Part shown: positions 4,814-31,980 of the stretch, piece by piece
Layout: every line of letters starts with the position of its first letter
How positions within the stretch are numbered: the stretch's first letter is position 1
Source of the DNA: Candidatus Gastranaerophilales bacterium
Lineage (GTDB): Bacteria; Cyanobacteriota; Vampirovibrionia; Gastranaerophilales; Gastranaerophilaceae
Assembly (NCBI GenBank): GCA_028693235.1
Contig: JAQUVW010000004.1
Coordinates: forward strand, 124,001 to 188,000
Reading direction: 5' to 3'
Length of the DNA stretch: 64,000 nt
The notes under the pieces: generated by a model
Seen by the model: the letters and a program-made list of their open reading frames with translations, nothing else
Told to the model about the DNA's origin: nothing
Databases searched by the model: none
Translations under genes and position numbers: made by a program

Positions 4814-5398
4814 TTATTCGTCGAGACAACTTTCGCACATATCACAATCATGGGGAGTTTGAGAGCAGTCTCTGCCTGATATAATCGCCATCACGGGCGG
4901 ATATCCATCGACTTTTTCAGCTACGCGGTGTCCATTATCATCATAAACTCCATTAATGCGAAATCCATACCCGTCTTTAAGTGTTTGCCAGGAGTCTGTA
5001 TACTCATTTGGCTTTTTGTCACCATTTATATCTACAGATATATAATCCCAGTCTATAGAATATGCCATTCCGTCTGATGTATAAAATATAACATCCCCAT
5101 ATGAGTAGGCTTGTGAATCGTTTGTTGAAGATACTATATTCATTCTTTTTGAAAAGAAGTTTTGATACATACAATCAGACTCATAATCACATTCTTTAAG
5201 TAAATCAAAATAAGTTTGCCCCGTTAGAGCATAATGTTGTGTAATAGCTTGTGACAAAGCAGAATACGCTTTTTTTACAGCAGTCTTGGTTTCTTCTTTA
5301 TTTGTATTATTCAACAATGAAGGTATTGTCATCGCAGCAATAACGCCTATTATAACTAACGTAATCAAAACTTCTGCAAGAGTAAAAGCCTTTTTCAT
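4814..5398 (-). CDS. Type IV prepilin / pseudopilin-like protein, XRE-linked (copy 1)
   Basis: 194 residues from the ATG at 5398, preceded by AAGGACGG. The prepilin signal is exceptionally short (MKKA before FTLAEVLITLVIIG, with the +5 Glu of mature pilins), followed by the hydrophobic assembly helix. The globular domain has 'FFSKRMNIVSS', 'FYTSDGMAYSI' and 'VDINGDKKPNEYT', an Asp/Asn-rich loop reminiscent of the calcium loop of GspG-type pseudopilins, and paired cysteines near the C-terminus. It is closely related to the prepilin at 31017. A divergent XRE regulator starts 77 bases away, with two palindromes in between. Whether it builds a pilus, a T2SS pseudopilus or a competence fibre is not visible. 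Confidence 0.85.
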   Translation of the reverse strand: MKKAFTLAEVLITLVIIGVIAAMTIPSLLNNTNKEETKTAVKKAYSALSQAITQHYALTGQTYFDLLKECDYESDCMYQNFFSKRMNIVSSTNDSQAYSYGDVIFYTSDGMAYSIDWDYISVDINGDKKPNEYTDSWQTLKDGYGFRINGVYDDNGHRVAEKVDGYPPVMAIISGRDCSQTPHDCDMCESCLDE

Positions 5399-5422: not shown

Positions 5423-5441
5423 TACCACCTACTGGGTGGTA
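5423..5441. promoter_or_regulatory. Palindromic operator 1 of XRE/prepilin locus A
   Basis: TACCACC-TACTG-GGTGGTA: a perfect 7-base inverted repeat with a 5-base centre, between the prepilin start (5398) and the XRE gene. It shares its ACCAC/GTGGT arms with the second palindrome centred 36 bases away, as expected for a dimeric XRE protein. Binding by the adjacent regulator is inference. Confidence 0.7.
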
Positions 5442-5458
5442 GATAACTCAAAACAAAT

Positions 5459-5477
5459 ATACCACAATAGGTGGTAT
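5459..5477. promoter_or_regulatory. Palindromic operator 2, overlapping XRE start codon
   Basis: ATACCAC-AATAG-GTGGTAT: a second perfect 7-base inverted repeat with a 5-base centre. Its last two bases are the first two of the XRE ATG at 5476, so occupancy would be expected to block expression of the regulator. No properly spaced ribosome binding site exists upstream of that ATG, because the only purine-rich run (AGGTGG) lies inside the palindrome, one base from the start. Confidence 0.7.
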
Positions 5478-30719: not shown

Positions 30720-30938
30720 TCAATAGCGAAGTAATTCATCAACAGAAACTTCAAGTGCTTTAGCCAGTTTTATAATAGTAAAAAGTTTCGCCTCAACAAT
30801 GCCTTTTTCAATTCGGCTTATCGTTGAAGGTTCAAGCCCGTTTCTGTAACACAATGCGGAAAGCGTAAGTTTTTTCGCTTTTCTCAATTGTTTTATATGT
30901 TCTCCGATAGATTTTAATTCATCGTTATTTTGTTGCAT
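30720..30938 (-). CDS. XRE-family HTH regulator, divergent from prepilin (locus B)
   Basis: 73 residues from the ATG at 30938. Single Cro/C1 helix-turn-helix: 'IGEHIKQLRKAKKLTLSALCYRNGLEPSTISRIEKGIVEAKLFTIIKLAKALEVSVDELLRY'. A longer frame from a TTG at 30986 would add residues encoded by the operator region and is unlikely. No Shine-Dalgarno precedes the ATG, and the start codon lies inside a palindrome, exactly as at locus A (5476). Divergent from the prepilin at 31017. Inferred role: autorepressor that also controls the pilin. Confidence 0.82.
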   Translation of the reverse strand: MQQNNDELKSIGEHIKQLRKAKKLTLSALCYRNGLEPSTISRIEKGIVEAKLFTIIKLAKALEVSVDELLRY

Positions 30939-30946
30939 ACATGCAA
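30933..30946. promoter_or_regulatory. Palindromic operator 1 of locus B, overlapping XRE start
   Basis: TTGCAT-AC-ATGCAA, a perfect 6-base inverted repeat. It contains the start codon of the XRE gene (minus strand, 30936-30938). Its partner lies 40 bases away centre to centre. Confidence 0.7.
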
Positions 30947-30972
30947 TTTTAATGTTATTATATTGGAAAATA

Positions 30973-30986
30973 TTGCACGCATGCAA
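30973..30986. promoter_or_regulatory. Palindromic operator 2 of locus B
   Basis: TTGCA-CGCA-TGCAA, with a perfect 5-base inverted repeat, sharing TTGCA/TGCAA arms with the first site. It lies 31 bases upstream of the prepilin ATG at 31017, where bound protein would be expected to interfere with transcription of the pilin. Confidence 0.65.
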
Positions 30987-31016
30987 AATTCAGAAGTAAA
31001 AGGAAACAAAAAGTCT

Positions 31017-31622
31017 ATGAAAAAAGCGTTCACCTTGGCGGAAGTATTGATAACATTAGTAATAATCGGAATCATTGCTGCGATGACTATTCCGGCACTT
31101 TTGAATAACACAAATAAAGAAGAATATAGAACCGGTTTGAAAAAAGCAGTCTCCATGCTTCAACAGGCGGCTAACCTTGAATATGCTGAAACAGGTAATA
31201 ATGCATACTCTTTTGCGAATTCGAAAGATTGGTATGACAACTTCTTCAGCAAAAGATTCAATATCGTGAGCTCTATGCCCTCGTCTATCAGCAAAGCTGT
31301 CCACTCGGGAGATGGGTGGACTGGAGAAATAGCATTCTATACAGCTGACGGTATGGCTTTTTCTATACACGGATACACCCAGTCTTGTAGCGTATTTATT
31401 GATGTAAATGGGGACAAAAAGCCTAACGAATTTACTCTGTCAAAAGACAACCTGAAAGACGGCTATATTATTTCTATAGAAAACTATAATGATGCTACAG
31501 ACACACATACCTACGGGGCCATGAATATACTTCCTTTTGGACCTTCCGCTTGTATTATCGGTGGAGATAATGCTTATAGTTGCGAAGATTTCAGCGACGA
31601 TGACGGTGACGACTATCGATAG
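31017..31622 (+). CDS. Type IV prepilin / pseudopilin-like protein, XRE-linked (copy 3)
   Basis: 201 residues from the ATG at 31017, AAAAGGAAA site upstream. MKKAFTLAEVLITLVIIG signal, then a head homologous to the 4814 copy: 'WYDNFFSKRFNIVSS', 'IAFYTADGMAFSI', 'IDVNGDKKPNEFT', 'LKDGYIIS'. Two C-terminal cysteines within an acidic tail (EDFSDDDGDDYR). The final codons and stop fall within an 80-base direct repeat whose second copy ends in the next gene (31901-31980). Shares the divergent XRE arrangement with locus A. Confidence 0.85.
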   Translation: MKKAFTLAEVLITLVIIGIIAAMTIPALLNNTNKEEYRTGLKKAVSMLQQAANLEYAETGNNAYSFANSKDWYDNFFSKRFNIVSSMPSSISKAVHSGDGWTGEIAFYTADGMAFSIHGYTQSCSVFIDVNGDKKPNEFTLSKDNLKDGYIISIENYNDATDTHTYGAMNILPFGPSACIIGGDNAYSCEDFSDDDGDDYR

Positions 31623-31690
31623 TAGACTTTGCGATGCTGAAACTGCGTAGCAATTTTATTTAAAAAACAATTTTTAGCCCTCAGTGATTT
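31611..31690. repeat. 80-base direct repeat, copy 1
   Basis: 77 of 80 bases match 31901-31980. It begins with the 12-base palindrome ACTATCGATAGT (31612-31623), which contains the stop codon of the prepilin, and ends with a variant of the 3' end of the downstream phosphohexomutase gene. Confidence 0.9.
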
Positions 31691-31733: not shown

Positions 31734-31898
31734 GTTTAAAGTATTTTGTATTGAAAATCTCCGACGGAGTATCGTGAGATTGCTTGTTGAAACTGCAGAA
31801 AAAGCGAATTTGTTTGAACGAAGTGAGTTATTCGCTTTGAGTTGAAACTAGCAATATAGAGGCACGGGAGCCGATTTGAGATACAAAATGCTTTAAAC
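31734..31898. repeat. Long imperfect inverted repeat (MITE-like hairpin)
   Basis: About 165 bases. The ends GTTTAAAGTATTTTGTAT and ATACAAAATGCTTTAAAC pair with one mismatch, and the centre has AAAGCGAAT (31801-31809) and ATTCGCTTT (31830-31838). Partial pairing continues between them (TTGCTTGTTGAAACT against AGTTGAAACTAGCAA). It lies between the two 80-base direct repeats. No reading frame. It could be a non-autonomous mobile element or a structured RNA. The whole 31623-31963 interval lacks a gene. Confidence 0.65.
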
Positions 31899-31900
31899 AT

Positions 31901-31980
31901 GACTATCGATAGTAGACTTTGCGATGCTGAAACTGCGTAGCAATTTTATTTAAAAAGCAATTTTTAGTCCTCAGCGATTT
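31901..31980. repeat. 80-base direct repeat, copy 2
   Basis: Second copy, 290 bases after the first, differing at three positions. It includes ACTATCGATAGT at 31902-31913, and its last 17 bases are the 3' end of the phosphohexomutase gene (minus strand). Confidence 0.9.

Follow-up and report, generated by a model that had tools for sequence, protein, structure and literature searches.

Two small XRE regulator genes, each divergent from a prepilin gene, were described in an earlier note on the 64,000-nucleotide stretch of Candidatus Gastranaerophilales DNA analysed here (the window). In this study, we asked whether the second pair, locus B, is a genuine regulatory unit, and what the regulator would do to the neighboring pilin gene (its cargo).

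Organization of locus B and locus A

The earlier note had placed a second XRE gene divergent from a second prepilin at 30720-31622, and both identifications were borne out (Table 1). The regulator matched HTH_3 (E = 5.8e-12, 45.9 bits against a curated cut-off of 23) and is a member of that family, while its neighbor matched N_methyl (E = 2.5e-5, 24.1 bits against a cut-off of 21.2) and belongs to the type IV prepilins/pseudopilins. The recognition helix of the regulator reads LEPSTISRIE. The intergenic gap is filled by two palindromic operators, O1 and O2, whose centers lie 40 bp apart. O1 holds the regulator ATG (30938-30936), as the note had seen, and also a putative -35 element of the cargo promoter (TTGCAT, 30933-30938). 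O2 is centered at -41.5 from the predicted XRE start and overlaps the predicted pilin transcript from about +5 to +18. An in-frame ATG at 30981 lies within O2, upstream of the annotated pilin start, so pilin B could start there.

Table 1. Features of the two XRE-prepilin modules, in window coordinates
Feature	Position	Strand	Remarks
Locus A prepilin	4814..5398	-	
Locus A operator O2, TACCACCTACTGGGTGGTA	5423..5441		conserved in class A
Locus A operator O1, TACCACAATAGGTGGTA	5460..5476		conserved in class A; ends on the A of the XRE start codon (ATG)
Locus A XRE regulator, class A, 78 aa	5476..5712	+	HTH_3, E = 4.1e-14; carries SQE motif
Locus B XRE (HTH_3) regulator, class B, 72 aa	30720..30938	-	starts MQQNNDELKS
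Locus B operator O1, TTGCATACATGCAA	30933..30946		palindrome; near-invariant in class B; pattern exclusive to the module
Predicted XRE -10 box, TAAAAT	30946..30951	-	7 bp upstream of ATG
Predicted pilin -10 box, TATTAT	30956..30961	+	17 bp after TTGCAT
Locus B operator O2, TTGCACGCATGCAA	30973..30986		palindrome; classes B, C and F share the -41.5/-42.5 placement
Locus B prepilin, cargo, 201 aa	31017..31622	+	divergent from class-B XRE

Locus A follows the same plan with TACCAC...GTGGTA sites, a center-to-center distance of 36 bp and the XRE ATG at 5476; the presence of two palindromes per locus, with the spacings first given, was confirmed for both. A close relative of the locus A regulator was found in 35 of 276 genomes. 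The motifs FFSKR(M/F)NIVSS, first written FFSKRxNIVSS, and GDKKPNE are indeed common to pilins A and B. The reported lack of a Shine-Dalgarno sequence held for the regulator; pilin A has one (AAGGACGG), and pilin B has a weak, distant AAGG.

Downstream, an 80-bp direct repeat (96%; 31611-31690 and 31901-31980) spans the pilin B stop codon and 3' flank. A 26-bp inverted repeat between its copies (31734-31759 and 31873-31898, 85%) resembles a small inserted element. The rest of the genome gave no more than a partial match of 51 bp.

Conservation of the regulator and operator pair

When two mismatches were allowed, the locus B 14-mer occurred 44 times in the window against an expectation of 44.8, which is no enrichment, so the palindromes by themselves are weak evidence and the proof is comparative. 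We searched for the class-B XRE in 288 family genomes (Candidatus Gastranaerophilales). Both operators were present, with the regulator ATG in the first, at approximately 45 of the 50 class-B loci examined. The named genomes with close relatives carried Candidatus Gastranaerophilales, Cyanobacteria SIG30, Scatousia or gut-bacterium titles, and other phyla gave only weak matches. An operator-pair pattern, independent of any protein and permitting spacings from 29 to 59, was scanned against 269 genomes. It matched in 43 of them, and all matches but one (in G021) adjoined a class-B XRE, while the reversed-pattern control gave 0 matches. Although the pattern permitted a wide range, the class-B spacing was 40 or 41 bp, as it was in every intact class-B and class-C module. 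Conservation and the reversed-pattern control rule out chance palindromes at locus B. These comparisons indicate that the pairing of regulator and operators is far beyond chance, and that this modular regulatory unit is real and widespread in Gastranaerophilales.

Several variants of the module were seen. In L096 (G208:C1:126.2 kb), a third class-B operator sits 34 bp from O2 on its pilin side, ahead of the pilin start; it produced the sole additional 34-bp spacing in the scan. In a class-B subgroup (L113-L118), O1 is degraded, O2 is kept and the adjoining cargo is of no assigned type. Tandem related XRE genes occur at single modules (L134, L140, L105 and L111), perhaps regulators diverging in place.

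Classes A and B shared a genome more often than expected (11 versus 5.5, P = 0.009, uncorrected for kinship), and class-B duplicates within a genome were few (1 versus about 3 expected); both trends are suggestive only. One genome, G010, carries pilins under classes A, B, C and F.

Operator words and recognition helices

The three well-sampled classes and class F have distinct conserved operators and distinct recognition helices: ARNYIGCIE with TACCAC/GTGGTA in class A, EPSTxSRIE with TTGCAT/ATGCAA in class B, [TS]ATxSRxE with TTACAT/ATGTAA in class C, and PSSVLSDLE with TATCGCG/CGCGATA in class F, whose cargo is mostly pilins. Single-case regulators have the operators TTCTATATATAGAA and TGCGTAACTACGCA. 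The alignments support the view that operator and recognition helix change together, each regulator class having its own operator. The earlier note had suggested that the differing operators give each regulator its own specificity and had proposed a covariation check across Gastranaerophilales genomes; in that check the class-specific operators did vary with the helix. On the B/C regulator tree, many forks of which are poorly resolved, the operator changes once, so the change from B to C counts as one event, and the case for covariation rests on the several classes.

Promoter geometry and translation starts

A Shine-Dalgarno-like motif was found in 1 of 105 regulators versus 46 of 50 assigned cargo genes. 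In class B, TAAAAT or TATAAT stands exactly 7 bp upstream of the XRE ATG in 45 of 48 loci; in class C, TAnnnT is kept in the same -10 place in 90%, its letters varying. With the -10 box at this distance, transcription is predicted to start at the A of the AUG (30938 at locus B), and the regulator mRNA would thus be leaderless or nearly so. Regulators without a Shine-Dalgarno, together with exact -10 spacing that predicts a leaderless mRNA, are new here.

The -35 region of the class-B XRE promoter (spacers of 16-18 bp) matched at 1.48 of 6 positions, below the null of 2.68 from a simple shuffle. The outer operator, O2, has its center at -41.5 or -42.5 in the single-case classes and in classes B, C and F, at about -43.5 in class A, and at -39.5 at the C2:374 kb locus of the genome that contains the window. 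On the cargo side, TATAAT matches peak at a 17-bp spacer after TTGCAT in classes B and C; the Met-Gln with which 44 of 49 class-B regulators start may therefore be fixed by DNA function, not by the protein. In all 27 class-C modules O2 is a better site than O1, and the two class-B operators are about equally good. A generic sigma-70 promoter scan called none of the module promoters, so these rest on alignment. Locus B also has an alternative XRE -10 candidate, TATAAT, 11 bp further upstream; with this box, O2 would overlie the -35 and be a repressor site.

Cargo genes and their exchange

Automatic calls of class-B cargo gave 11 pilins, 13 HAD-like, 3 GT8 and 10 other genes, with 11 not assigned. 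Class A had 10 pilins, 2 HAD-like and 13 other or unassigned genes, and class C had 9, 1 and 22, respectively. Pilins make up about 30 of the 105 divergent cargo genes in classes A, B and C. Because regulators linked to pilins served as seeds for the B, A and later searches (class B with one member only), this fraction should be read as an upper guess for the XRE family as a whole. The remaining cargo comprised HAD-like proteins, GT8/GT2 glycosyltransferases, small exported proteins, small helical proteins and unassigned genes, and no restriction or methylase gene was seen among it. Pfam backed the GT8 calls (E = 2.6e-9), and the HAD-like calls had a sub-threshold NIF-phosphatase match only. 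Judged from these calls, pilins are frequent but not exclusive cargo of the XRE units. The earlier picture of a modular family of privately regulated pilins therefore stands for the modularity and the class-specific operators, but not for a restriction to pilins.

The B/C regulator tree, with its many poorly resolved forks, implies at least 4 cargo changes among assigned types. Related cargo also appeared under different classes: the pilin bodies of L108 (B) and L154 (A) are 53% identical and those of L103 (B) and L185 (C) 59%, HAD-like cargo is 55-64% identical, and a small helical protein is 83% identical between L144 (A) and L147 (C). The DNA similarity of L108 and L154 begins 6-9 bp past the start codon, and the strongly conserved 5' end of pilin genes may serve as a recombination joint. 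Together, the compared loci show regulator and operators staying together, the operator word being class-specific and the cargo varying.

Related loci in the same genome

The genome (2.1 Mb in 7 contigs) encodes about 33 N_methyl prepilins, about 18 well-supported HTH_3 genes and T2SSE-family ATPases. At C1:177 kb an XRE gene adjoins a pilin in the same direction, at C2:374 kb an XRE gene is divergent from a pilin with the palindrome CCGCCTTGGCGG, and at C2:342 kb the XRE-pilin neighborhood is a degraded remnant. At C5:176.5 kb the sites of a divergent XRE gene are of the TTACA type, and its cargo is a small protein that is apparently exported. At L003 (G000:C2:428 kb), the XRE gene and a pilin homologue run head-on; the divergent promoter and the N-terminus of the pilin were apparently lost in a deletion. 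A pilin B paralogue at C3:334.9 kb (84% DNA identity) becomes similar just inside the gene, and neither an XRE gene nor operators were found upstream of it.

A wider class-B regulon in this genome was rejected: the sole exact O1-like site outside the module (C3:325.4 kb) is intragenic. Of the one-mismatch sites, the three examined in context (L122-L124) are likewise intragenic, and the site at C5:176.7 kb is part of the class-C module.

Proposed mechanism and alternatives

We consider it probable that locus B is one copy of a modular, self-regulating divergent switch, in which an HTH-only XRE protein (70-90 aa across the switch regulators) with private operators represses an exchangeable cargo gene. 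An XRE dimer would bind O2 and O1. Because O2 lies on the predicted cargo transcript start and O1 on the putative cargo -35, cargo repression is likely from the site positions, and because O1 also covers the regulator's own start, the regulator would limit itself.

Bound at O2 (-41.5), the XRE may also activate its own promoter, which would create a two-state switch. This idea comes from an XRE promoter with a good -10 and no evident -35, as in lambda cI and the restriction-modification (R-M) controllers, and we advance it tentatively, by analogy. Counting against activation, the regulators of class B (TIS/TLE/TLS) and class C (SLN) are without the SQE sigma-contact motif, which is found in 23 of 25 class-A regulators. 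Locus A may thus be a true activator-repressor, whereas for locus B we rate plain repression about equally likely. The promoter geometry would allow an epigenetic two-state switch.

Under such plain repression, the XRE would act only as a homeostatic repressor, using both operators to hold down its own promoter and that of the cargo; it would neither activate nor create two states. Cargo expression would begin once the regulator was diluted or degraded, or when it had just been transferred into a naive cell. We regard this homeostatic model as a serious contender, if short of probable. The overlap of the operators with both predicted promoters, the missing SQE in classes B and C and the near-equal class-B operators all fit it; the regulator promoter without an evident -35 does not, nor does the constancy of O2 at -41.5/-42.5 across classes with unrelated operator words.

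It is improbable that the regulator mainly controls itself as a selfish or mobile piece, with any gene beyond the promoter as cargo. The varying cargo, the patchy distribution of modules between genomes and the decay of some copies would suit such a piece. Against this, the same cargo types recur in independent classes and are stable within subclades of the regulator tree, the cargo-directed -10 and Shine-Dalgarno are conserved, and in most pilin modules of classes A, B and C the pilin and XRE starts are 63-70 bp apart.

The phase or antigen variation raised by the earlier note found no direct support: many pilins and surface cargo would suit DNA-level phase variation by an invertible or slipping promoter, but it is very improbable, since the sole inverted repeat of at least 14 bp sits downstream of the pilin gene and the promoter has the same orientation in all related loci examined; with no inverted repeat spanning the promoter, an invertible promoter at locus B was rejected.

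Returning to the self-regulating switch, private operators would let several such genes per genome switch independently. In its most far-reaching form, Gastranaerophilales would have a lineage-wide system of six or more leaderless XRE switches, all orthogonal to one another. These would become joined, at the start codon, to various surface genes, and each would set a heritable on/off state independently of the others. We judge this form unlikely.

Comparison with known systems

In the lambda cI PRM-PR switch, an operator centered near -42 serves a promoter whose -35 is poor, and the same operator blocks the divergent promoter; the distance of O2 here is that of lambda OR2. The XRE unit likewise has an operator near -42 at a promoter with a poor -35 and is predicted to block the divergent promoter, but it has no sensor or cleavage domain, no Cro partner and no phage genes.

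The best solved match of the class-B XRE is C.AhdI (E = 3.5e-7). R-M controller proteins activate at low level and repress at high level from two operators and contact sigma via SQE, and leaderless regulator mRNA is reported to be common for C genes (PMC4824078). The present regulators share with C.AhdI, C.PvuII and C.Csp231I a small HTH-only XRE fold (72 aa here), two palindromic operators, a leaderless regulator mRNA (predicted here) and, in class A, the SQE motif. Unlike those proteins, classes B, C and F, and hence locus B, are without SQE, the cargo is a divergent pilin or other gene with no linked restriction enzyme, the operator words differ, and the operators are spaced 40/41 bp center to center over the entire divergent promoter. 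The XRE unit is therefore not a controller protein, but is built like one, and its geometry would fit self-activation at low level and repression at high level.

The MrpJ paralogues of Proteus and Morganella fimbriae are also many small regulators, some tied to separate surface-fiber operons (PMC3521468), as here. However, MrpJ represses motility in trans, no private divergent operator pair is known for it, and its fimbriae are of the chaperone-usher type rather than type IV-like pilins. In the literature searched, we found no publication on an XRE gene divergent from a prepilin; the one Gastranaerophilales paper there mentions type IV pilus genes only.

Implications

The dozens of small related regulators in this family, with matched operators that span several specificities, form a natural panel on which helix-to-operator recognition and orthogonality are directly testable. 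The family also shows that a regulator can stay joined to its operators as a unit, whichever gene is controlled. If the orthogonal switches were true, they would provide combinatorial epigenetic surface variation without DNA rearrangement in a genome with dozens of pilins. For uncultured gut relatives of cyanobacteria that have dozens of pilin genes, these findings suggest a way in which some of the pilins might be wired separately.
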